DNA of 64,000 nucleotides from a bacterium BMS3Abin14 (GTDB lineage Bacteria > BMS3Abin14): NCBI GenBank assembly GCA_002897695.1, contig BDTG01000008.1, positions 1-64,000 on the forward strand, in the 5' to 3' direction. A program made the position numbers and the translations under genes. Position 1 is the stretch's first letter. Each line of letters begins with the position of its first letter. Below, piece by piece: positions 2,504-26,547 of this stretch. Under the pieces are notes generated by a model, which made no database searches, was not told where the DNA came from, and saw nothing but the letters and a program-made list of their open reading frames with translations.

Positions 2504-3059
2504 AGTATCTCCTTCTGCGGGCTTGTTACGCAAGTTCCATACCACAAAGCGGCAGGGCACGGCGGCTTGCGAAACGAGGTTTCCCTTTATTTACAGATGG
2601 TTATGGATTCGAAAAAACAGGGTTTCATAGGCTTTTTCAGGTTTCCCGATTAATGGGGCATTGTGCCCAGAGTTTTGGGGCAAATGCCCCATTTCTGTCT
2701 GCCTTGATCTTAATTTAAATTGTCACCGCACTTTTTACCACAGAAGCACGGAGAAAACTTTAAAATCTTTCTAACAGGGATAAAGGGGATAAATTCCCGA
2801 ACAACCTCTTTCAGAGCCCTGGTGTCCATGGAAAAGATACTCCCCCCTCAAAACACTTTCCCCCTCACCTCAATCCTCTCCCCCTAGGGGAGAGGAAGAA
2901 TGAGGATAGGTTCCATCAGGAAGGGAGGAAGAATTGGGAATATGCCTCATTTTATGCTCGCAATGACTTCCTTTTCTTCCCTGTGTCTGATCTTCCACGT
3001 TGGGCTTTGGGCTTGTTACCTCGAAACTTCGTTACCTCGATACTTCGACACCTGCCTGT
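2504..3059. other. 556-base gap made largely of repeats
   Basis: I see no convincing gene here. The part from about 2766 to 2967 is a long dispersed repeat that recurs at 7464-7652. Around 3018-3055 there are TACCTCGATACTTCGA-type short repeats that recur elsewhere in the window. The gap separates the NtrC-type regulator gene from the propeller gene, so the latter may have its own promoter here, but I found no clear -35/-10 pair. Confidence 0.6.
2766..2967 (+). repeat. Long dispersed repeat, copy 1
   Basis: About 190-200 bases matching 7464-7652 in the same orientation, with a few substitutions and short indels by eye. Landmarks shared by both copies are TTTCTAACAGGGAT, GGGGATAAATTCCCGAACAA, a palindromic CCCC(T)AGGGGAGAGG core, and the ending ATGCTCGCAATGAC. 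No protein is conserved across it. Both copies lie in non-coding gaps of the same cytochrome module. Confidence 0.85.
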
Positions 3060-4412
3060 TCACAACAACTCATGCTTCTTCATCCGGTAGCGCAGCGTAT
3101 CCCGGCTGATGCCGAGTAGCCGGGCGGCCTTTGACTGGTTCTCCCCTGATCGCTCCAGCGCACATTCGATGAGTACCTTTTCCGTTTCGTCGAGGTTAAG
3201 GGTCTTTCCCTCGATCACCGAGGACGGATGGGCGGGAACGGACCTGCTCAGGGACAGGTCCTCGACCCCGATGGCCGTCTTCGCCGAGAGGATCATGGCC
3301 CGCTCGATAACGTTCTTGAGCTCCCTGACGTTTCCCGGCCAGTTGTAGGCCTCCATGGCTTTTATCGCCGCTCCGGTGACCTCCCTGACGTCCTTTCCCA
3401 GGTCGCGGTTGAACTGGGCGAGGAAGTGCTCCGCCAAAGGCGCGACGTCATCGGGCCGTTCCCGCAGAGGGGGAATATTTATGGGAATGACGTTAAGCCG
3501 GTAGTACAGGTCCTCACGGAAAGTCTGCTCCCGGATCTTTCCCTCCAGGTCCTTGTTGGTGGCCGCGATGACCCGGACGTCAACGGTGATATCCCTGGTT
3601 CCGCCCACACGCTTGAATGTCCAGTTCTCGAGAAACCTCAGGATCTTGGCCTGGAGCGCCATGGGCATGTCGCCGATCTCGTCTAAAAAGAGGGTCCCGC
3701 CGTCCGACAGCTCGAACTGTCCCTTCTTCAGGCTCTTGGCATCCGTGAACGCTCCCTTCTCGTGGCCCATGAGCTCGCTTTCCAGAAGCTCCCTGGGCAG
3801 GGCGGTGCAGTTCACCGGCATGAACGGCATGTCCCCTCGCCTGCTCTCGTAGTGGATGGCCTGGGCCAGAAGGTCCTTTCCTGTCCCGCTTTCGCCGGTA
3901 ATGAGGACGGTGGTTGCGTCCGACAGGGCAATTTTGCGCCCGACGTCGAGAACCTCCTCCATCTCCCGGCTGCGATGGATGATATTGTTAAAACCGTACC
4001 GTCTGTTTTCCTTCTCGCGATATCGGGTAACCTCGTCCTTCAGGCGCAGGGTCTCGAGTGCCTTGTCCACGGTTATCCGGACCTCGTCGAGGTTGAAGGG
4101 CTTCGGCAGATAATCGAAGGCCCCGTCCTTCATGGCCCGGACCGCCACGGACAGGTCGGATGTGGCCGTGATCATGACGACGGCACATTCGGGCCTGTTT
4201 TCCCTGATGCCCCGGAGCAGGTCCATGCCGCTCATGCCGGGGAGCTGGATGTCCAGGAGCACCAGGTCCGGATCCTCCATCTCCATGACGGCGAGGCCCT
4301 CCTCGGCCGAGGCCGCCATCAATACCTCGTACCCGTGCTCCACGAGGTTCTGCTGGAGGGACCAGCGGATAAGGTATTCATCGTCTATTACGAGTATTCT
4401 GCCTTTAGCCAT
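3060..4412 (-). CDS. Sigma-54-dependent NtrC-family response regulator
   Basis: Start chosen at ATG 4412 (GGTGAAG upstream) rather than the GTG at 4424, giving 450 residues. The receiver domain is at 1-120, with Asp54 in the LLDIQLPG context. The AAA+ domain (about 140-375) has Walker A GESGTGKD. The sigma-54 contact loop reads GAFTDA instead of GAFTGA. A Fis-type helix-turn-helix closes the protein (SKAARLLGISRDTLRYRMKK). It follows the haem-motif histidine kinase and almost certainly forms a pair with it, activating sigma-54 promoters. The targets are unknown, but neighbouring cytochrome genes are the obvious candidates. Confidence 0.93.
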   Translation of the reverse strand: MAKGRILVIDDEYLIRWSLQQNLVEHGYEVLMAASAEEGLAVMEMEDPDLVLLDIQLPGMSGMDLLRGIRENRPECAVVMITATSDLSVAVRAMKDGAFDYLPKPFNLDEVRITVDKALETLRLKDEVTRYREKENRRYGFNNIIHRSREMEEVLDVGRKIALSDATTVLITGESGTGKDLLAQAIHYESRRGDMPFMPVNCTALPRELLESELMGHEKGAFTDAKSLKKGQFELSDGGTLFLDEIGDMPMALQAKILRFLENWTFKRVGGTRDITVDVRVIAATNKDLEGKIREQTFREDLYYRLNVIPINIPPLRERPDDVAPLAEHFLAQFNRDLGKDVREVTGAAIKAMEAYNWPGNVRELKNVIERAMILSAKTAIGVEDLSLSRSVPAHPSSVIEGKTLNLDETEKVLIECALERSGENQSKAARLLGISRDTLRYRMKKHELL

Positions 4413-4499
4413 TTTCTTCACCACTGAGTGTGCGGAGACAACCTTTTGGCTCTTGGTTAATAAGCCGCTCTCCGCTAAACGGCACGTTGTTTTACCACC

Positions 4500-4552: not shown

Positions 4553-6073
4553 TTACGTCGAATCCGAATTATCAGCCGGTGATTCTGATTTAGGCAGATA
4601 CACCCGGAACACTGAGCCCTTTCCCACCTCGCTGTCCACGGTGATACGACCATGGTGCTGCTCGACCAGGCGCAGGGTGATGGGGAGCCCCAGCCCGGTG
4701 CCGTGGACCTTGGTGGTGAAGAATGGAGCGAAGATGCTCTTTATTTTATCACTATCTATTCCCGCTCCCGTGTCGGTAAAGGAGATGACGACGTAATCCT
4801 CAACGGGGTGAACCTCACCCAGTTCGGGGTCGGCCGATGGACACCCGGCGATTGTGAGTACGCCGCCGTCCGGCATCGCCTGAATGGCGTTCACCGCCAT
4901 ATTGAGAAAGACCTGCCGGATAAGGTCCGGATCAAGGGGGACCATGGGCATTGAGGGGTCCATATCAAGACTGACGTCGATTCCATAATTCTTTATCTCG
5001 GGCATCCCTTCGATGAGGAAGAGGGTCTTATGCACCAGATCCGCTATGTCGGTGGGCACGATTTTCGGCACTGAAGGCCTGGCGAAATCCAGCAGATCCC
5101 TGATTGTTGAATCCAGGCGCTCGATGAGCTTGAGGATCTCCTGGGTAACGGGGTAACGGGGATCATCCTCCCCGAACTCACCGGCGAGGACCTGGGTCGC
5201 GCCGGCGATTCCGGCCAAGGGGTTTTTGATCTCGTGGGCGATGCCGGCGGCCAGTTCGCCAATGGTAGCCAGACGGTCGGCCCTCTTGAGCTGTTCGGCA
5301 TGGAATTGCTTCAGCTCCCTGTCGGAGCTGTCCAGCCGGCTGATCATGGAGTTGAAGCTGTCGGCCAGGTGTCCCAACTCATCATTCCTTCTCAGGGAAA
5401 CGCGGGCGGTAAGGTCGCCCTTCCGCACTCTGGCCATGGTGCGAACGAGCCTGTTGACGGGGATATTAACCAGAAGCCACAGGCTGATGCTTATGGCGAC
5501 GACCACCAGGATAACCGTGGTGAGGGTGGTGGCAAAGAGAAACTTGCTATTTCTGGCGATGCGCTCCTCCGTATCCTGCATGGAGACGCACACGTCGAGA
5601 ATACCCAGCAGTTCCTTCTCCTCCCCATGGCAGCGGTGGCACTCCAGGGAGTTTTCGATGGGCTCAATACTGCAGAAAGCCCTCTGCTCCGTCCCCTCGG
5701 ACCTGAAGGGCCTGCCCCTCTCGTCGCTCTTGTATACCGAGTAGTCCAGGACATCCACAGTCTTTCCGACCTCACTGGGCTCAGCGGAGTAGGTTATGAT
5801 GCCATCTTCGTCGAAGATTCTCACCGTCCTGATCCCTGGAACAACGCCCACGGTGCTGACGATCTTCTGAACGTCCTTCTGGCAAAAACCGCTCATCTCC
5901 ACAACGATGGAGTTCATGACGGAAGCCGTCAGGATGGTGGCCTTGGTCATGGCCTCCTCGATGGCCTGGTGGGTCAGGTTTTTCTTGATGAGGAAGGAGG
6001 AGGTCCCCAGGGCCACCGCCAGGATTACCGCGATGAAGAGATTGACCTTAAATGCCAGTGATTTTAGAAACAT
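4553..6073 (-). CDS. Sensor histidine kinase with a CxxCH motif in its extracytoplasmic domain
   Basis: 506 residues from ATG 6073. TM1 lies at about 7-27 and TM2 at about 179-203, enclosing a 150-residue extracytoplasmic sensor, then HAMP (about 203-256), HisKA with His280 in GIAHEIKNPL, and an HATPase domain with the N box near VFLNMAVNAIQAM and the G boxes DTGAGID and GTGLGLPI. The sensor contains ECHRCHGEE (Cys145, Cys148, His149), the covalent c-haem attachment signature, next to further Cys residues (64, 134, 162). Haem-bearing periplasmic sensors are known in metal- and sulfate-reducing bacteria, so I infer redox or gas sensing. It lies 30 bases after the small selenoprotein gene and before its NtrC-type partner. 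Confidence 0.9.
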   Translation of the reverse strand: MFLKSLAFKVNLFIAVILAVALGTSSFLIKKNLTHQAIEEAMTKATILTASVMNSIVVEMSGFCQKDVQKIVSTVGVVPGIRTVRIFDEDGIITYSAEPSEVGKTVDVLDYSVYKSDERGRPFRSEGTEQRAFCSIEPIENSLECHRCHGEEKELLGILDVCVSMQDTEERIARNSKFLFATTLTTVILVVVAISISLWLLVNIPVNRLVRTMARVRKGDLTARVSLRRNDELGHLADSFNSMISRLDSSDRELKQFHAEQLKRADRLATIGELAAGIAHEIKNPLAGIAGATQVLAGEFGEDDPRYPVTQEILKLIERLDSTIRDLLDFARPSVPKIVPTDIADLVHKTLFLIEGMPEIKNYGIDVSLDMDPSMPMVPLDPDLIRQVFLNMAVNAIQAMPDGGVLTIAGCPSADPELGEVHPVEDYVVISFTDTGAGIDSDKIKSIFAPFFTTKVHGTGLGLPITLRLVEQHHGRITVDSEVGKGSVFRVYLPKSESPADNSDST

Positions 6074-6098: not shown

Positions 6099-6116
6099 CG
6101 GGGTCACCCGACCCCG
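6099..6116 (-). other. Candidate bacterial SECIS hairpin of the small selenoprotein
   Basis: On the transcript this reads CGGGGUC-GGGU-GACCCCG, a perfect seven-base-pair stem with a G-rich four-base loop. It starts 11 nt after the UGA at 6130-6128, so the loop lies 18 nt from the UGA. Both distances fit the SelB-binding mini-hairpin described for E. coli fdhF. The selD gene in this window has a comparable hairpin with a CGGGU loop. Confidence 0.7.
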
Positions 6117-6262
6117 ATACACGACAGTCAGAGCAGGGTTGCGTTGAACATAGTTTCCGCCCACTGCCCTTGCGAGATGCCCACAAAAAGGGCAACTCCT
6201 CCCGCGGCCAACAGAATGATTTTCAGCATGTCCTTTACTCTGCCCATCGGCGCTCTGTTCAT
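6104..6262 (-). CDS. Probable selenoprotein: small single-helix membrane protein with a UxxC motif
   Basis: The ATG at 6262 overlaps the TGA stop of the TlpA-like gene (ATGA), so translation is probably coupled. Read conventionally, the frame stops at TGA 6130-6128 after 44 codons. Read through, it continues U-L-S-C-I-G-V-G and ends at TGA 6106-6104, giving 52 residues. Residues 13-29 form one transmembrane helix, followed by GISQGQWAETMFNATLL and then Sec45-Leu-Ser-Cys48. A seven-base-pair hairpin with a GGGU loop begins exactly 11 nt after the TGA, the spacing known for bacterial SECIS elements. Small membrane proteins ending in a CxxCIGIG-like motif (the CD1871A-type family, from memory) are the likely cysteine homologues. 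The function is unknown, and a redox role beside thioredoxin-fold and cytochrome proteins is inferred. Met12 is an alternative start. Confidence 0.75.
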
Positions 6263-7431
6263 TGGGTGCCCCGTTTTTGCATCATGAGTTTCATCCTCTC
6301 CATGGGTTCGAGCTTCTTTTTTACCTCCAGGGAAAACCCCAACTGTTTCAGTCTGTCCACAACGAGTGGCGACAACATCGCGACGGCCTCGTTTATTTTC
6401 CCCGCATCCTCCAGGATCAACGCCTCGTCCAGGTCAACCAGGGGCTTTGGGACTGCCTGTGATTCCTGTGAAGACCCCGCAATGGATTCAGCCGGGCCGG
6501 CGGATACTGTGGAATCCGCCATGAGATCCGCGACCCGGCCCGCCAGGAGTTCAATACTGTCGTCAAGCCTGTTTTCCTTCAGGAGCAGGTGGGCCAGAAG
6601 GAGACGGGTCTCAGCCCGTTCAGGATCAAGATGGTAGGCTTTCCGAAGAAAAGTCCGTGCTGCATCGGTATTCCCCTCCCGAATGTCGGAATACGCGAGG
6701 TAGATTGGAGGGTCGGGAAAGTGGGTATCCTCCTCGGCCGCCTGCTGAAATTCCGGGATAGCCTTGGAGGAAAGCCCCCTCGCCATCAAACTCTTTCCCA
6801 TGCCGAAATGCAGCATCGCCTGTCGATTCGGCATGTACCCCGGCGCTTTGGCGGCGGTCTCCTTCTTCTCATGGTACAGGCCCAACTCCTTACGGACGGC
6901 AGTATCAAGGTCCAGGTAGCCCGCGGTGGGGTAACCGGACAGGTCAAAAACCACTGTCCCATCGCGGTTGATGACCGCAGTGGTAGGGGTGGCGATAACA
7001 CCCCACTCGTTGAAGTTCTTGAGCCCCTTATCCACAAGAACGGTAAAGGAGATCTCTTTTTCCCGGATCACCTTCTTTATCCTGGCCATATCACCGGCAT
7101 CCAGGCGTTGGTTTTCAACGTTAACCGCCAGGATCTTCAGGCCTTTTTCCCCATACTTTCGGTCCAGTTTTGCCAGATCGTCCATCTCCTTTAAGGAATG
7201 CCCGCTCCAGGTGGCCCAGAAGAAAAGGAGAATAGCCGAAGAATCCCCGTAATCCGAAAGGTTATGTGTATTTCCTTCCAGGTCCTCCGCCGCGATGGGA
7301 AGCGCCTGGTCACCGGCCTTAAGGTTTCTGAAGGCGGCCGCCGCCCCGGACACCGAAAGCAGAAAAAATCCAAGAAGGATCGAAACTACAACTGATCGCG
7401 AAAGATTTCCGCGCAGAACTCTACTCAACAT
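6259..7431 (-). CDS. TlpA-like thioredoxin-fold protein with TPR domain, no CxxC
   Basis: Start preferred at ATG 7431 (GGTGAGG upstream), 390 residues; an in-frame GTG lies at 7437. A signal peptide ends near AAAA at residue 33 and the mature part begins FRNLKAGD, as in the paralogue at 8445-9473. The thioredoxin/AhpC fold covers about 37-185. Where the catalytic pair should be, the sequence reads TWSGHS, so both cysteines are serine. The cis-Pro region is kept (ATPTTAVI). TPR-like helices fill about 205-300, followed by a Ser/Ala-rich linker and a charged tail. Without the CxxC it cannot be an ordinary thiol reductase. It directly precedes the selenoprotein gene, whose UxxC could supply the missing redox pair; this is inference. 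Confidence 0.82.
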   Translation of the reverse strand: MLSRVLRGNLSRSVVVSILLGFFLLSVSGAAAAFRNLKAGDQALPIAAEDLEGNTHNLSDYGDSSAILLFFWATWSGHSLKEMDDLAKLDRKYGEKGLKILAVNVENQRLDAGDMARIKKVIREKEISFTVLVDKGLKNFNEWGVIATPTTAVINRDGTVVFDLSGYPTAGYLDLDTAVRKELGLYHEKKETAAKAPGYMPNRQAMLHFGMGKSLMARGLSSKAIPEFQQAAEEDTHFPDPPIYLAYSDIREGNTDAARTFLRKAYHLDPERAETRLLLAHLLLKENRLDDSIELLAGRVADLMADSTVSAGPAESIAGSSQESQAVPKPLVDLDEALILEDAGKINEAVAMLSPLVVDRLKQLGFSLEVKKKLEPMERMKLMMQKRGTQ

Positions 7432-7736
7432 TCGCACACCTCACCAGGGGGAAAAACTTAATCCTTTCTAACAGGGATGGAGGGGATAAATTCCCGAACA
7501 ACCTCTTCCAGAACCCCGGTTTCCATGGAAAAAGATACCTCCCTCACCCCCACCTCTGTCCTCCCCCCCCAGGGGAGAGGAAGAATGAGGATAGGGTCCA
7601 TCAGGAAGGGAGGAAGAATTAGGAATATGCCTCACTTTATGCTCGCAATGACAGGCGCTTGTCGCTGCACCTGTTTTTTCTCCTCTGGACACTGGACTCT
7701 GGACTGTGATTTTCCCTGCTGCTCACAGTCACAGCA
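7432..7736. other. 305-base gap holding the second copy of the long repeat
   Basis: No gene is supported. The central 190 bases are the long dispersed repeat also found at 2766-2967. At 7679-7706 there is a TCTGGACACTGGACTCTGGACT array of the heptamer family. The gap breaks an otherwise compact set of genes, so a promoter or processing site is possible, but none is clear. Confidence 0.55.
7464..7652 (+). repeat. Long dispersed repeat, copy 2
   Basis: Matches 2766-2967 in the same orientation from TTTCTAACAGGGAT through the CCCCAGGGGAGAGG core to ATGCTCGCAATGAC. It is slightly shorter than copy 1 because of small indels in the C-rich part. It separates the five-haem cytochrome gene from the TlpA-like gene. 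Confidence 0.85.
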
Positions 7737-8429
7737 TTAAAGCAGATGGTACTTCCTGTCCGAACTGTGGGGATCGTGACACTTGGTGCACACCGCGTTC
7801 CTGCGCTCTTCGATATGTTTTTGGCTCAGGTTCTGGTCATGGCAGCTCAGGCACAGTTCCTTGCCGGTTGCCCTGAGAAAGTATTTGTTGCGGGATCCAT
7901 GCGGGTCGTGACAGGAGGTGCAGGACCCTGCCGCCACCGGTCCGTGGACAAATTTACCTTTTTTAATGGGATCGTGACAATCGCTGCAGAGGGCCTCGTC
8001 ATTCCCGGCGATGGAATAATCCCCCTTTGCCGCGCCGGGATGGCAAGTGTCACAGGAAGAAACATCCGTTTCAATGTGATACCTGTATCCCTCCTGTTTT
8101 CCAATGAATATCTTCAGCTTCAACCGTTCAATGCCGGGGGCAGCCAGCGTCAGTTCATGTCTTCCTTTCGCCAGGTTTAAACTGTTAACGAAGATCTCTT
8201 TCTTTATGGGCGCAAACCCGATTGTCTTTCCATTATCGAAGATCTCCACCGTCTTTCCTTCATGATATCCCTCGACCTTGGCGATAATAAGGACTTTACC
8301 GCTCTTCAGGAACACCTCCTCGGCAGGCGTCAGAAGGTGAAACCTGGACCCGGAAGAATAAACAGTCGCAATCGAAAAAGAAAACACAAGCAGAACAGCC
8401 AACAGCGTCCCACCCACGAATTTTCCCAT
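7737..8429 (-). CDS. Periplasmic pentahaem c-type cytochrome with N-terminal beta domain
   Basis: 230 residues from ATG 8429, with GGGGAG upstream. A signal peptide occupies about 1-25. Residues 30-115 look like a small beta-sandwich (FLKSGKVLIIAKV, GRHELTLAAPG) with no haem. Five CxxCH sites follow: CDTCH, CSDCH, CTSCH, CLSCH and CTKCH, several in the CHDPHGS or CHDPHSS context of doubled-CXXCH cytochromes. It overlaps the 3' part of the gap after the second TlpA-like gene by a short distance (8445 to 8429), which indicates one operon. It is probably an electron carrier working with the 15-motif cytochrome at 9500-10798. Confidence 0.9.
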   Translation of the reverse strand: MGKFVGGTLLAVLLVFSFSIATVYSSGSRFHLLTPAEEVFLKSGKVLIIAKVEGYHEGKTVEIFDNGKTIGFAPIKKEIFVNSLNLAKGRHELTLAAPGIERLKLKIFIGKQEGYRYHIETDVSSCDTCHPGAAKGDYSIAGNDEALCSDCHDPIKKGKFVHGPVAAGSCTSCHDPHGSRNKYFLRATGKELCLSCHDQNLSQKHIEERRNAVCTKCHDPHSSDRKYHLL

Positions 8430-8444: not shown

Positions 8445-9473
8445 TTATTTCGTTTTTCCTTCCATTTTCAGCTGCCTGTGGATGGCATCACGATAGGTGG
8501 TCATAGCCTTCCGAATCTCACCCTTTTTCTCGTACACCTGGCCAAGCCTGTACAACGCCAGGGCCGGGTCGGGATTGAGGGCTGCGGCCTTCTGCAGTTG
8601 AGCCTCTGCCGCATCAAGATCACCTGCGGCCAGCAAAACCGTTCCCAATCCAATCCTGGCGTCATGGGATCCGGGGTCCGATTCAAGCGCCTTCTCGAAC
8701 TGGGCCTTGGCCTCCCCGAAATTCTCCGCCTCGATGTATAATCGGCCTGCCATCAACCTCGCGTCAACCAGGGATGAGTCGAGCTTCAGGGCCTTCAAAA
8801 GCTTGGGGAGGGCCTTGCTTCCCATCCCCCTGCTGATAAGAATACGGGCCGTCTGCATTTCCCGCTGGGCCTCCTTGGCCTCAGGGGTAAGCTCCTGAAT
8901 CTCGTGCTTCATCTCGGACCGGGCCAGCTCCTCCTCGCTGATCACGCCCAGAAGCACCTTGCTCTTATCCATCAGTGCCTGTTCGAAGTCGCTTCCGTAG
9001 GAGGAATATTCAAAAACGAAGCGGCCTTCCTGATCGATGATGGCCGTGGAGGGAAATATGAACAGCCCGTACTTTCCGTAGATCTCTCTATCCTTGTCAA
9101 GTAGCACCGGAAACTTCAGGGCCAGCTTTTCCTTCAGGGACTGAAGATCCTCAATGCTCTCATCATTTTCGGATATAGCGAAAACGGAAAGCCCTTTATC
9201 TTTCAGGCTCGCATAGATATTGGTCAGCCCGTTCAACGCTCTGATGGACCGGTCCTGGACGCCCTTGACGAAACACAGGACGACCACTTTACCCTTCTCG
9301 GCGGAAAGGGAATGCTCCACACCCGACAGGTCCTTCAGCGTAAAATCGGGCGGTATTTCCCCATCTTTCAGGTTTCGAAATGCGGAGCATACCGCCGGTG
9401 GTGAAAGGAAGAAAACCGCCAGGGCGAGCACAACGGTCATGCGGGCCACATACCCGGACATTCTGCTTCTCAT
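8445..9473 (-). CDS. Peroxiredoxin/TlpA-like protein with TPR repeats, no CxxC
   Basis: 342 residues from ATG 9473. The N-terminus is a signal peptide ending around PAVCSA, followed by FRNLKDGE as in the paralogue at 6259-7431. The AhpC/TSA-like fold spans about 38-180. In place of the active-site loop it reads LCFVKGVQDRS, so a single cysteine remains and the CxxC pair is missing. At least three TPR motifs fill about 210-335 (ALESDPGSHDARIGLG and ALNPDPALALYRLG are clear). I infer a periplasmic scaffold or cytochrome-maturation helper rather than a classical reductase. It is 15 bases from the pentahaem cytochrome gene. Confidence 0.82.
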   Translation of the reverse strand: MRSRMSGYVARMTVVLALAVFFLSPPAVCSAFRNLKDGEIPPDFTLKDLSGVEHSLSAEKGKVVVLCFVKGVQDRSIRALNGLTNIYASLKDKGLSVFAISENDESIEDLQSLKEKLALKFPVLLDKDREIYGKYGLFIFPSTAIIDQEGRFVFEYSSYGSDFEQALMDKSKVLLGVISEEELARSEMKHEIQELTPEAKEAQREMQTARILISRGMGSKALPKLLKALKLDSSLVDARLMAGRLYIEAENFGEAKAQFEKALESDPGSHDARIGLGTVLLAAGDLDAAEAQLQKAAALNPDPALALYRLGQVYEKKGEIRKAMTTYRDAIHRQLKMEGKTK

Positions 9474-9499: not shown

Positions 9500-10798
9500 T
9501 CAGTTGACTACCGGGTTGATCCTGTCATATCCCTTCGGTTTATGACAACCAACCTCGCATGAACCGCCATTCTTGGTCTGTGTATACTTTATAGGCAGCA
9601 TCCACATCTTTCCGAAAGGGACCTCCCTTCGGATATGTTTCGGCTGATCTCCGGCGTGCACCTCGTGGCAGGCCTTGCATGATCGCCCTTTTTCCCGGTT
9701 GACATGGACAAAATGGAGGTTCTTGTCGCCATTTCTGAAACCGGTCAGGGTGGTGGTGAAGCGATCAAGGGCGATATCTTTGTTGTGACAGTCAAAACAC
9801 AATGCGTAACTTTTGGTGCTATAGGGCAGATAGAACTCGGCTGGGAACGGTTTCTTGAGAATCTTGGTAAAATCAGACCCATGAGGATTGTGACAGGCAT
9901 AACAGTCGTTCTGCCGAACCGGGCCGTGGACGTACTTGGCTTCCCTCACCTTTTTGCCCATCTCCTTATGACAGGTATAGCAGATCTGCTTGGCGGAAGC
10001 TTTAAGCTGCCTTGGATAATCCGAGGCGTGGGGCGTGTGACAGACCGTACACTTTTTCTCTTTCAAGGCGCCGTGTTTGACCGTGGAGTCCCTAATATAT
10101 TTTTCCATGTCCTTGTGGCACCTGAAACACAGGTCCTGGCCTTCGGCTTTCAACTGGTACCGAAAATCGGTGGAGTGAGGATCGTGGCAGTTGGAACAAT
10201 CCTCGGCGGCCGGCTTGTGCTTGTATTTGAGTTCAAACTGCGCTTTTCTGTCCAGGTGGCACAGGAAACACAGGTCCGAGCCCTGTAACTCCAGCAGGTT
10301 TTTGTAATCGGACGAGTGAGGATTGTGGCAGATATTGCAATCCCCGGCGGCAACCGGCCCATGCACAAACTTCTTGTCGGTCTTATTGTTCTCGTGGCAG
10401 GAGAAGCACAGCGCACTCATGGTCTTCTTCTTCAGCTGTTTCTCGGAATTGGACTGATGCGGATCATGACAGGCGATGCACTCACCTTTCTTGATGGGGC
10501 CATGAACGACCTTCCCTGTCTCCTTGGTTTCATGGCACAGGTAGCAAAGGGCCTTTCCCTCGGCCGGGAACTTGAAGTCGCTTTTTTTGGAATGGGTGGG
10601 ATGCCCGGATTTCCCTGCGGTATGGCAGATAGTGCACTGCCCTACTGCCACCGGGCCATGAACGAATTTGGCCTTCCCCATGCCGGAGTGGCATTTGGCC
10701 GTGACACAGCTATCAGCGTAAGCCGTATTCCCACTAGCCAGAACCAGCCCCAAGGACAAGAAGACCGCAAAGATTGATACTGCCGCCAGTCGCCTCAT
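9500..10798 (-). CDS. Large multihaem cytochrome with 15 haem-type motifs
   Basis: Start ATG 10798 with GGGAGGG upstream, 432 residues. A more distal start at 10837 would lie in front of the signal peptide and has no ribosome site. The signal peptide ends near AYA. Thirteen standard CxxCH sites are visible, plus two non-standard ones: CVTAKCH (CX4CH) at the N-terminus and CEVGCH (CX3CH) near the C-terminus. Most sites sit in alternating HGP...C..CH...PH repeats of the doubled-CXXCH kind, suggesting an extended haem wire. It is the first gene after a strong promoter and probably the main electron conduit of the module. Whether it is periplasmic or exported to the outside cannot be told. Confidence 0.9.
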   Translation of the reverse strand: MRRLAAVSIFAVFLSLGLVLASGNTAYADSCVTAKCHSGMGKAKFVHGPVAVGQCTICHTAGKSGHPTHSKKSDFKFPAEGKALCYLCHETKETGKVVHGPIKKGECIACHDPHQSNSEKQLKKKTMSALCFSCHENNKTDKKFVHGPVAAGDCNICHNPHSSDYKNLLELQGSDLCFLCHLDRKAQFELKYKHKPAAEDCSNCHDPHSTDFRYQLKAEGQDLCFRCHKDMEKYIRDSTVKHGALKEKKCTVCHTPHASDYPRQLKASAKQICYTCHKEMGKKVREAKYVHGPVRQNDCYACHNPHGSDFTKILKKPFPAEFYLPYSTKSYALCFDCHNKDIALDRFTTTLTGFRNGDKNLHFVHVNREKGRSCKACHEVHAGDQPKHIRREVPFGKMWMLPIKYTQTKNGGSCEVGCHKPKGYDRINPVVN

Positions 10799-10872
10799 TT
10801 TATCCCTCCCATGCCTAAACAAATTAAACGGCTCCAATAATATTTTTCACAATGTGCTTGAAATCACGCAAC

Positions 10873-11236: not shown

Positions 11237-12073
11237 TTACGCGTAGCTGTGCAGGCCAGACAGGAGAAAATTGACGCCGAAGTAGGTGAAGATCACCGCC
11301 GAAAATCCGACAATGGAGAGTATCGCAGCCCGCCGGCCCTGCCAACCTCGCGTAAGACGGGCATGGAGATAGGCCGCGTAGATGAACCAGGTGATGAGAG
11401 ACCATGTCTCCTTGGGATCCCAGCTCCAATAGGTTCCCCACGCATAATTGGCCCACGCTGCTCCGGTAATGATCCCCAGGGAAAGGAGCGGAAAACCGAC
11501 AGCAACGGACTTGTAGTTGACCTCATCGAGCATCTTTGATTCAGGAAAGAGGGATACCAGAGAGCCTTCCCCGCCCATCCTTTCCGCTCTGTTCTTGACC
11601 AGGTACATTATAGACACGCCGAATGAAACGGCGAATGATCCGTAGGCGACAAAAGACGTGACCACATGGGCGATAAGCCAGTTGCTCTGAAGCGCCGGCA
11701 CCAGGGGCTGAATCTGGTCGGGAAACAGCAGTGCGTTAGCCGCAAGGATGACGAAGGCAAGGGGGGAGACAAACGCCCCCACCGCTTTCTGCTTGAACCG
11801 GTATTCCACCACCAGATAGGCGATCATGACGCACCACCCGAAGAACCCGAGGGATTCGTACATGTTGGATAGAGGCGCATGGCCAATGCCCATGCGGTAG
11901 GACTCGACCCACCGTATGATCATGGCTGCGGCCTGAGTAACGACACCCAGCCAGACCATTCCCGTGGCCACATTTCCCACGACCCGGCCCCTGAATGCAA
12001 GATAACCGACGTAGAAAAAGGTGGCAAACAGGTAGGCGAAAGTGGCTATTCCGAACAGGGTGGAGCTGCTCAT
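11237..12073 (-). CDS. ccsB: Cytochrome c biogenesis protein CcsB (ResC), haem-handling membrane protein
   Basis: 278 residues from ATG 12073 (GGAGATAA upstream). It has about eight hydrophobic helices and the WWD signature WGTYWSWDPKETWSL near residue 215-230, which binds haem on the periplasmic side in System II cytochrome c maturation. Conserved histidines are present in the loops (IAHVVTSF, LHSYA). It lies 11 bases after resB, the other half of the haem-ligation complex. This pair would attach haem to the many CxxCH proteins in the window. The size fits the CcsB family of split, non-fused systems. Confidence 0.95.
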   Translation of the reverse strand: MSSSTLFGIATFAYLFATFFYVGYLAFRGRVVGNVATGMVWLGVVTQAAAMIIRWVESYRMGIGHAPLSNMYESLGFFGWCVMIAYLVVEYRFKQKAVGAFVSPLAFVILAANALLFPDQIQPLVPALQSNWLIAHVVTSFVAYGSFAVSFGVSIMYLVKNRAERMGGEGSLVSLFPESKMLDEVNYKSVAVGFPLLSLGIITGAAWANYAWGTYWSWDPKETWSLITWFIYAAYLHARLTRGWQGRRAAILSIVGFSAVIFTYFGVNFLLSGLHSYA

Positions 12074-12084
12074 TATTTTATCTC

Positions 12085-13518
12085 CTATTCCTTCCCAGGG
12101 TCCTTCTTTAATACCTGTTTTAAGGCCGTCAGCGCACCGTTGAATTCCTTTTCAAAACTTGCGAGGTTTCTGTTGGTGGAACCGGCCATGAGAACAGCTG
12201 TATTATCAGGATCAAGCTCGATCCTGAGCCACACCCTCCTGTGGGGAACGAAGAAGGCGACATACAGGCCGCCAATCATGACGAAGCATGCGATCCATAC
12301 CAGAGGAACACCTGGATCCCACGCAACCTGAAGACCCGTGAATTCCCGGATATTTGCATCCCTTATCCGGAAATAGACCGGCCCCCCCCGCAGTTTGTCC
12401 CTGTCGGCTGCTGCCATGGAGACGAAAAAATCCTGCCTGGCGCCTGACGCGATCCTGCTCATTCGAACGGCGGGACGGCCTCCGATATAGGACGGCATTA
12501 TCTGTTGTATCCCATAGGTGGCTGAATCGCCAATAACATTGAAGGGCTGCCCCGCGGCAACGGTGACGGAAGGTGCCGCCACCTTGCCTGAGGGGTCAAG
12601 GACGTCCAGGGTTACGGTAGAACTCCGGTCAACGCCGTAGCTTGACTGATAGAAGTAGATTCCATCGACGATCAGGGGGTGGTTGACCTCGATCCTCTTT
12701 TTCATTACCTCTTTGCCATCCCGGATGACCACCAGATCGCTGAAATAATCCTTCGGCTGCTGAGTGCCGGGATAGTATATCACCTGAAAGTCGTCACAAC
12801 GGATGTCAAATGGAAGTTTGATGACCGCGTTCCTGCCGCGAAGGGGGACCCTGTTAATGGTCTGGCCCTCAGCGATTGACACGAACCCCTTGAATCCAAC
12901 CGCACCGCCGTAAACGGCGCCAACGGCCAGCATCAGAATGCTCAGATGGACCACGTAGGCCCCCATGCGGCCGTACCAGCCCCGATCCACAAAGAAGGTG
13001 ACGGCCTCCTCGCTGCGGTCTTCCCTGAACTTGCCGAAACGATCGGCCAGGAGGTCCCGTACCCTCTCTTCGGTCTCTTCAGGCGAAACACCCCGGCGCA
13101 CCGATCCGCGGAACCTCATGCGCCTGAAAAGAACATCGTCCAGGACTGAGGGAGACCGGGTCATCAGACGCCACGCCCGGGGGAATCTCTTTATGGAACA
13201 CAGTGTGATGTTGATCAGAAGGAGAGCCAGAAGGGTCAGAAACCACCATGACCGGTACATGTCGTCCAGGGCGAGGGCCTGGAACAGCCTATATGTTCCG
13301 GACCCGTACTCATTCAGGTACTGTTCCGGGCTGCCGTTCTGAAGGACAACGGTTCCCACGATGGACGTCATCGCCAGGATGATGAGAAGAAAGATGGCGA
13401 GGGTCACCGAGGCGAGTGAGTCGTAGACTCCTTTGAGGAATGATTTTTTGGTGCTTTTGGCTGAAGGTTTTCCGGTATTTTCCGTAGATTTCACTTTATT
13501 CCGATTTTCCGAGGTCAC
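12085..13518 (-). CDS. resB: Cytochrome c biogenesis protein ResB (Ccs1)
   Basis: I prefer GTG 13518 (GAAGG upstream; 477 residues). The longer frame from 13563 would begin inside a GC-rich hairpin. There are three N-terminal membrane helices (near DSLASVTLAIFLLI, WWFLTLLALLLINI and YVVHLSILMLAVGAVYG), then a large periplasmic beta-rich domain and a final helix (LVWIACFVMIGGLYVAFF). This is the ResB/Ccs1 arrangement that works with CcsB to deliver haem to apocytochromes. It lies between a small cytochrome gene and ccsB in the same direction. Confidence 0.92.
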   Translation of the reverse strand: MTSENRNKVKSTENTGKPSAKSTKKSFLKGVYDSLASVTLAIFLLIILAMTSIVGTVVLQNGSPEQYLNEYGSGTYRLFQALALDDMYRSWWFLTLLALLLINITLCSIKRFPRAWRLMTRSPSVLDDVLFRRMRFRGSVRRGVSPEETEERVRDLLADRFGKFREDRSEEAVTFFVDRGWYGRMGAYVVHLSILMLAVGAVYGGAVGFKGFVSIAEGQTINRVPLRGRNAVIKLPFDIRCDDFQVIYYPGTQQPKDYFSDLVVIRDGKEVMKKRIEVNHPLIVDGIYFYQSSYGVDRSSTVTLDVLDPSGKVAAPSVTVAAGQPFNVIGDSATYGIQQIMPSYIGGRPAVRMSRIASGARQDFFVSMAAADRDKLRGGPVYFRIRDANIREFTGLQVAWDPGVPLVWIACFVMIGGLYVAFFVPHRRVWLRIELDPDNTAVLMAGSTNRNLASFEKEFNGALTALKQVLKKDPGKE

Positions 13519-13549
13519 TTGGCCTTCATTATATTGAGGTTGGCATATA

Positions 13550-13577
13550 ATGGGGGGCGGCACCCGCCGCCCCCCGT
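13550..13577 (-). terminator. GC-rich hairpin downstream of the small cytochrome gene
   Basis: GGGGGGCGGC-ACCC-GCCGCCCCCC forms a ten-base-pair stem 30 bases after the small cytochrome stop and just before resB. There is no long T-run, so it may attenuate or protect RNA rather than fully terminate. Confidence 0.45.
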
Positions 13578-25494: not shown

Positions 25495-26547
25495 ATGAAA
25501 AAAAGAAAGGACATCTACAGACTGACCGGCATGGTCAAGGCAGCCGGTTGAGCCGCAAAACTGGGTCCGGGTGACCTTCAGGAACTACTTTCGCCCCTGC
25601 GGAAAAACATACCGGGGGATCCGCGGCTTCTGGTCGGCACGGAAACGTCCGACGACGCCGGGGTTTATCTTCTCGACGACGACACTGCCCTTGTCCAGAC
25701 CATGGACGTCATCACTCCCGTCGTGGATGACCTCTTCGATTTCGGCTACATCGCTGCCGTCAACGCCCTTTCCGATATATTCGCCATGGGCGGGGTTCCT
25801 CTGACGGCGATGAGTTTCCTCGCCTTCGACCCCTGCACCCTTGCCACCGAGGCCGCTTCCGAGATCCTGCAGGGGGGGGTGACCGCCCTGGAGGAGGCAA
25901 GGTGTACCCTGGTGGGAGGGCACACACTGGAGGACCCGGAGATCAAATTCGGCATGGCGGTAACCGGAACGGTCCCCCGGGATAGAATCATAACTAACGC
26001 CGGTGCCCAGCCTGGCGACCACATCTACCTTACGAAGCCTCTGGGTACGGGTATCGCCTCCACCGCGCTGAAAGGGGAGATGGTCCCGACCTCCCTGATC
26101 GAGGAGGCGACCCGCTGGATGAAAACCCTGAACCAGGACGCCTCCACGGCTGCCGCAAAGAACGGGGCCACGGCAATGACCGACGTGACTGGGTTCGGCC
26201 TCCTCGGACACCTGTCGGAGATGTGCGTGGCCGCCGGAATCGGGGCCGAAATCGACTTTGCGACTGTGCCGGTTATGGACGGAATTCCGGAAATGGTCGG
26301 GATGGGGATGGTGCCCGCCGGTGCTTACGACAATATCGGGCACATCGAGGGGATGATAGAATATGGGCCCCTTTCCCGAGATGACCTCCTGCCTCTGTAC
26401 GACCCACAGACGTCAGGAGGCCTGCTGATCTCCGTGCCGCCGGGCAACTTGCCCGGCCTTGAAAAAGGGCTCCGTGATAAAGGTGTGTTCTTCATCCGGA
26501 TAGGCCACTTTTTAAGTCCCGGCGATCGCATCCTCATCCGCCGGTAA
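25495..26547 (+). CDS. selD: Selenide, water dikinase, itself a selenoprotein
   Basis: 350 residues when the in-frame TGA at 25549-25551 is read as selenocysteine (Sec19). The sequence MVKAAG-U-AAKLGPGDL aligns with the catalytic GAGCGCK site of E. coli SelD, with Sec in place of the catalytic Cys17. Without read-through only a fragment starting at Met70 would remain, so recoding is needed. Downstream are LVGTETSDDAGVY, the NALSDIFAMGG metal/ATP region, AMTDVTGFGLLGHLSEM and DPQTSGGLL, all highly conserved. The enzyme makes selenophosphate from selenide and ATP. It follows yedF. The ribosome site is weak. Confidence 0.95.
25561..25581 (+). other. Candidate SECIS hairpin of selD
   Basis: Nine bases after the UGA, CUGGGUC pairs with GACC(UU)CAG around a CGGGU loop: seven pairs with a two-base bulge. 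The loop starts 16 nt after the UGA, within the range reported for bacterial SECIS elements. It resembles the hairpin of the small selenoprotein at 6099-6116. Confidence 0.6.

Follow-up and report, generated by a model that had tools for sequence, protein, structure and literature searches.

A very small gene on the minus strand of the 64,000-nucleotide stretch analysed here (the window) encodes, with a probability close to certainty, a true selenoprotein in which an in-frame UGA is read as selenocysteine (Sec); the case for it is built on comparison with related sequences. Its product is almost certainly the Sec form of the CD1871A CXXC family, a family so far known only with Cys. The Cys family and its operon were already known, and what is new is the Sec variant of that family.

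The small gene and its in-frame UGA

The frame of the small gene consists of MNRAPMGRVKDMLKIILLAAGGVALFVGISQGQWAETMFNATLL, a UGA (6130-6128), the codons for LSCIGVG and a second UGA (6106-6104), all on the minus strand. The product is a single-pass membrane protein of 47-52 residues, in which the residues before the Sec codon end in FNATLL. The ATG (6262-6260) shares bases with the TGA stop (ATGA) of the thioredoxin-TPR gene that lies upstream; all homologues, however, start at the position of M6 (ATG 6247), so the small protein may have 47 residues rather than 52. The overlap, the single helix, the in-frame TGA, the LSCIGVG tail and a hairpin 11 nt further on had all been described in a sequence-only reading of the window, and every one of them is present. 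The features of the window discussed in this and the following sections are these:

6104..6262, minus strand: coding sequence of the small, very probable selenoprotein, terminal UGA included (translation with TGA=U; homologues in 13 genomes)
6128..6130, minus strand: putative Sec codon UGA, residue 45 of 52 (UGA in 13 genomes, Cys codon in six other-phylum relatives)
6107..6127, minus strand: seven codons LSCIGVG (strong protein-level selection; the Cys at UGA+3 completes the UxxC)
6104..6106, minus strand: terminating UGA, within the hairpin (the coding signal ends there)
6173..6229, minus strand: core of the single transmembrane helix, residues 12-30 (hydropathy 2.17; AlphaFold2)
6099..6116, minus strand: SECIS-like hairpin CGGGGUC-GGGU-GACCCCG (six inner pairs in 13/13; not in six Cys forms)
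4553..6073, minus strand: sensor histidine kinase (downstream of the small gene and in phase with it; not fused in relatives)
6259..7437, minus strand: ResA/TlpA-like thioredoxin-fold and TPR protein (AhpC-TSA 69 bits, TPR; WATWSGHS, the CxxC replaced by SGHS)
8445..9473, minus strand: second ResA/Redoxin-like and TPR protein, without CxxC (Pfam; sequence)
7737..8429, minus strand: multihaem c-type cytochrome (paired CXXCH families)
9500..10837, minus strand: multihaem c-type cytochrome (paired CXXCH families)
11237..12073, minus strand: CcsB/CcsA-type cytochrome c synthase subunit, System II (TIGR03144 296 bits, over the cut-off)
12085..13563, minus strand: ResB, System II cytochrome c biogenesis (PF05140, E 2.5e-102)
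25495..26547, plus strand: selD, itself a selenoprotein gene, UGA at 25549 (TIGR00476 355 bits, one TGA inside)

The small protein has one hydrophobic segment, residues 12-30, with a mean Kyte-Doolittle value of 2.17, and its AlphaFold2 model (mean pLDDT 70.7) consists of helices at residues 6-30 and 34-49. Hydropathy, the positive-inside rule and the basic N-terminus together suggest an N-in/C-out anchor that would place the UxxC at the periplasmic face of the membrane, and the model would put the UxxC on the short second helix, at the membrane surface.

The strongest evidence for recoding comes from the relatives. The UGA, the LSCIGVG tail and the hairpin are common to 13 genomes in several lineages. 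When these 13 Sec forms are compared in all pairs, 137 synonymous and 0 non-synonymous differences are seen in the seven codons that separate the two UGAs, with the serine codon swapping between TCN and AGY, while the codons directly past the second UGA show 48 synonymous versus 446 non-synonymous differences; such pairwise counts among related sequences are not independent events, and the contrast is nevertheless extreme. The two ratios, 137:0 before the second UGA and 48:446 after it, argue that the protein passes the first UGA and ends at the second. The proposal of a selenoprotein in the sequence-only reading thus survives at all three points where it had been laid open to refutation: homologues do not end before the TGA (13 of the 14 in the Sec lineage continue past it, the exception, G009, being a decaying locus); CxxC-bearing relatives exist, and in six of them, from other phyla, a Cys codon aligns with the UGA; and selA, selB and tRNA-Sec, when looked for, were all present in the genome.

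Could the UGA nonetheless be an ordinary stop? The protein would then end at FNATLL and the conserved 3' part would be an RNA element, a terminator or a regulatory hairpin. UGA is of course a legal stop, hairpins after genes are common, and the G009 homologue does lack the tail. We regard this explanation as highly improbable, since it leaves the complete lack of non-synonymous changes among the 137 codon differences after the UGA without a cause; moreover, other phyla have Cys at this codon, the position is never UAA or UAG in the 13 genomes, and no U-run is found 3' of the hairpin. A reading of the UGA as some other residue (Trp, or a near-cognate readthrough), or a reading of both UGAs that would fuse the small protein to the kinase, is in our estimate scarcely credible. 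The residue aligned with the UGA elsewhere is always Cys, and the full Sec machinery is at hand. As for the fusion, in the window the kinase frame does match the small gene in phase, but an in-phase kinase is not conserved downstream, where the frames differ in other genomes, and the second UGA lies within the hairpin, where the coding conservation ends. Ordinary stop, Trp readthrough and kinase fusion were accordingly rejected on the grounds of conservation, Cys alignment and codon differences.

Two side observations concern the surroundings of the small gene. The histidine kinase (4553-6073, minus strand) has a CxxCH in its N-terminal sensor part (SLECHRCHGEEKE), which suggests a haem-c-binding sensor, and a sigma-54 response regulator (3060-4424) adjoins it. 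Similar non-coding stretches are found at 7477-7740 and 2720-3100 on the plus strand; frames with GRMRIGSIRKGGRIRNMPHFMLAMT occur in both, and the stretches look like a dispersed intergenic repeat.

The hairpin and the selenocysteine machinery

The hairpin (6116-6099) has 7 bp, starts 11 nt after the Sec UGA and reaches -12.8 kcal/mol; its loop is GGGU, with GG in the first loop positions, and the apical loop stands 18 nt after the UGA. It falls within the bSECIS model given in PMC13188914, which calls for a stem of 4-16 bp, a loop of 3-9 nt at 16-37 nt from the UGA, G in the first two loop positions and an MFE <= -7.5. Under a strict form of this filter 10 of the 13 sequences pass, the other three falling just short of -7.5 kcal/mol when trimmed to the bare stem. 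The second UGA is itself part of the structure, its U being the last base of the loop and its GA the first of the 3' arm. Because the terminating UGA lies inside the hairpin, most of the 3' arm is untranslated, and pairing past the stop is beyond explanation by selection on the protein.

It is this kept pairing, and not covariation, that carries the weight of the SECIS case. All 13 sequences form the six inner pairs; G-U stands in nine cells and an A-U replacement in one. When the partner was shifted by one to three bases in a sliding control the pairing dropped from 94.5% to 37-57%. Covariation is slight, with one cell changed on both sides, which is no better than shuffles. A single hairpin of this kind is not rare either: 7.6% of constructs in which the peptide was fixed and the codons and 3' sequence were random pass a bSECIS-like filter, as do 5-7% of the window's TGA triplets, so the case rests on conservation in the 13 genomes. 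The hairpin is absent from all six Cys forms examined, five of which stop with TAA or TAG and not TGA. Rfam, searched at gathering score, gave no match in the whole window.

The source genome (G000) has a tRNA-Sec (72.7 bits), selA, selB, a Sec-type SelD and a Sec-type formate dehydrogenase, FdhA; the Sec motif of this FdhA is UHS, not UHxP, and was found by its open frame. Two statements made earlier from the letters of the window are borne out here, as a YedF/TusA-like frame adjoins selD, and SelD does need recoding of a TGA, at 25549. In the phylum both selD and fdhA carry candidate hairpins with GG at the loop. The selD hairpin region, GGUC-CGGGU-GACC, lies about 17 nt after its UGA and resembles the small gene hairpin in sequence: both have the core GGUC(C)GGGUGACC. 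Further afield, tRNA-Sec is found in all four distant Sec-form genomes and is missing in three of the five Cys-form genomes checked.

Distribution and family

In the genome set used here the class of the source genome makes up its whole phylum, with 12 genomes. Ten have the small gene, and in nine of these ten it has the hairpin as well as the UGA, ULSCIGVG and the UGA stop. Four further Sec forms came from a scan of 84,980 species genomes, namely L025, L027 (Deltaproteobacteria), L028 (Deferrisomatales) and L029 (Deltaproteobacteria, placed in Myxococcota); the scan used two peptide patterns, so the distribution is a lower bound. Cys forms with CLSCIGI(G/Q) are L030, L031, L033 (Chloroflexota), L034, L035 (Candidatus Hydromicrobium), and relatives with Cys at the UGA position belong to Chloroflexota, Actinomycetota and Clostridia. 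A tblastn search of the small protein against phages and plasmids gave no match.

The annotated CXXC family was retrieved with the 4Fe-4S protein as search bait. Each of the 14 aligned members has a match to NF040920 (CD1871A family CXXC motif-containing protein), the best at E 1.7e-6, and no other model of note was found for these 14. The link to CD1871A suggested in the sequence-only reading proves real at the HMM level. The window member, with Cys put at the UGA, matches positions 1-38/38 at 19 bits, whereas the curated cut-off is 32 bits; it is thus a divergent Sec branch related to CD1871A and not a member by the NCBI cut-off. The likeness extends to size, to a single N-terminal membrane helix, to a similar middle part and to the C-terminal CxxCIGxG, which in the window becomes UxxCIGVG as U replaces the first C. 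It extends as well to the neighbours, a TlpA and a 4Fe-4S membrane protein: in Peptoclostridium acidaminophilum the gene of the RefSeq member WP_168023683.1 is immediately followed by that of a 4Fe-4S protein, and a TlpA is encoded slightly upstream. In the genus of the window a different contig carries the 4Fe-4S gene. The differences are the Sec in place of the first Cys, with the motif ULSCIGVG, and the SECIS hairpin in the mRNA. The NCBIfam model NF040920 describes CXXC only.

Neither the CD1871A family nor its name appears in the available text of a 2026 catalogue of 119 prokaryotic selenoprotein families and subfamilies (PMC13188914); the families of Haft and Tolstoy 2025 entered this comparison only via that 2026 review. 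The UxxC selenoproteins of the catalogue, TsoA included, have a UxxC or similar motif and a bSECIS after the UGA, as does the small protein. The spacing in TsoA (LULAxC, NF045695) is U-L-A-x-C, against U-L-S-C here, and an NCBIfam scan of the small protein with E up to 10 gave no match to NF045695.

Partners and a proposed role in cytochrome c assembly

The best-supported candidate and most constant partner of the small protein, judging by gene content, is a NapH-like membrane protein encoded outside the window, which has Fer4_5 and in which LNCYACP motifs are conserved. Its gene adjoins the small gene in most genomes of the class, and in Cys-form genomes as well; in the window's genus it has been relocated, and in G000 and G001 it lies divergent beside ccmE-ccmF-ccmH. 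Eight of nine genomes with an intact small gene have it (G000, G001, G004-G008, G011); G003 (73% complete) has the small gene and gave no NapH-like match, and both genes are absent from G002 (complete) and G010. The two agree in state in 11 of the 12 class genomes, a pattern indicating that they are co-inherited. No NapH-like gene lies within about 6 kb of the small gene in L025, L027 and L028. In the NapH-like tree a well-supported branch (100/98) separates the nine Sec partners from the rest, which is compatible with one switch to Sec, although long branches make the rooting unsure.

In G009 (L081, G009:C141) the whole module is decaying. Its small gene is without the UxxC tail, its thioredoxin-TPR gene has stops, and its NapH-like gene is cut to the first 54 residues and runs into a cytochrome frame. 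A co-loss of the UxxC tail and tRNA-Sec was considered for this genome and set aside: fragments of selA and selB are present, and at 71% completeness of the genome the lack of a tRNA-Sec is not evidence.

TlpA, the small protein and the 4Fe-4S protein occur together in the Cys forms of Chloroflexota and in the RefSeq-annotated Peptoclostridium. A 2025 preprint (PMC12637426), in its available portion, describes an operon of the same kind in gut Clostridia, made of a TlpA-like reductase, a 4Fe-4S protein and a small CxxC protein between them; that portion reports no Sec. The window's class further differs in that its TlpA-like partner is without CxxC and has TPR repeats, in that the 4Fe-4S gene is elsewhere in two genomes, and in the cytochrome c assembly genes around.

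Both thioredoxin folds of the window are without CxxC (WATWSGHS, VKGVQDRS), and so are their class counterparts; the thioredoxin neighbour in Cys-form genomes has CAPC, CTPC or CPPC. The sequence-only reading had the Sec form working with the CxxC-less proteins coded beside it. A CxxC-less thioredoxin-TPR protein does adjoin the small gene in this phylum, but only there. The rule that a Sec form goes with a CxxC-less thioredoxin held inside the class and failed in the Sec forms L025 and L027, where the adjacent TlpA has CVAC, so Sec is not tied to the loss of thioredoxin cysteines. The two CxxC-less ResA/TlpA-like and TPR proteins (6259-7437 and 8445-9473, minus strand) are found phylum-wide beside multihaem cytochromes and may be cytochrome-specific holdases.

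What might the small protein do? It is reasonably probable, in our view, that the selenoprotein works as a selenol/thiol relay from the NapH-like protein to periplasmic acceptors, for cytochrome c assembly. The NapH-like 4Fe-4S protein would be the electron donor, and electrons would pass from its Fe-S clusters to the periplasmic UxxC and from there to periplasmic thiols. TlpA/ResA-type thioredoxins would be the acceptors where these keep their CxxC; in the window's phylum the CxxCH thiols of apocytochrome c and the cytochrome c synthase would be reached more directly, and the cysteine-less thioredoxin folds may only hold or present the substrate. The relay would serve System I/II cytochrome c assembly by holding the haem-binding thiols in the reduced state, and it is established that apocytochrome thiols need a reductant, such as CcmG, DsbD or CcmH (PMC10663686). 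The genes ccsB/resB accompany the small gene in the window and in L029, and the small gene of L025 is near ccmE. An electron-relay role as such we hold to be fairly likely, its direction, partner and substrate being read from gene order; cytochrome c as the specific target, read from the same gene order, is less assured. The source genome has both System I (ccmE/F/H, L078:2224-6174) and System II (resB/ccsB, window 11237-13563).

Alternatively, the selenol/thiol function of the selenoprotein in the periplasm could be a general one, not specially connected with cytochrome c maturation, be it the handling of peroxide, metal or sulfur species or an electron outlet for the NapH-like protein. This we doubt, without thinking it far-fetched. 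The triad of the Cys forms stands beside unrelated genes in Clostridia and Chloroflexota, the available portion of PMC12637426 treats it only as a redox operon, and in a genome with so many cytochromes the adjacency could be a coincidence. The cytochrome c assembly genes, however, lie by the module or by its partner in several separate arrangements, ccsB/resB in the window and L029 and ccm in G000/G001 and L025, and this speaks for the relay in cytochrome c assembly.

Elsewhere it is CcdA/DsbD that keeps haem-binding thiols reduced. We put forward, as a tentative idea, that the NapH-like Fe-S protein, the UxxC/CxxC relay and the TlpA-like carrier replace it, the relay having switched once to Sec in several lineages. 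As in the pathway of CcdA/DsbD and ResA/CcmG, electrons would cross the membrane and reach thioredoxin folds and CxxCH thiols in the periplasm, and ResB/CcsB and Ccm genes stand alongside the small gene or its partner. Unlike CcdA/DsbD, the system has no DsbD_TM homology, its relay is a 50-residue single-helix selenoprotein, and its donor would be an Fe-S membrane protein and not a cytoplasmic thioredoxin. DsbD_TM/CcdA was not found in the module-bearing genomes G001, G007 and G008 (97-100% complete). However, G000 has the module plus one DsbD_TM match (52 bits), so the replacement is not clean, and G002, which is complete and keeps the cytochrome cluster, is without the module and without CcdA, so the module is not strictly required there.

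With the small gene, selenoproteins very probably gain a family that is cut short or overlooked by gene callers, the protein being tiny and its Sec eight residues away from the C-terminus. As evolution swaps the first Cys of the CxxC in the poorly understood CD1871A family for Sec, that motif is marked as catalytically important. The Cys-form operon of gut Clostridia is linked to immunotherapy side effects in the 2025 preprint (PMC12637426), so knowing what the relay does would be useful more widely. The cytochrome c neighbourhood offers a concrete and testable task.
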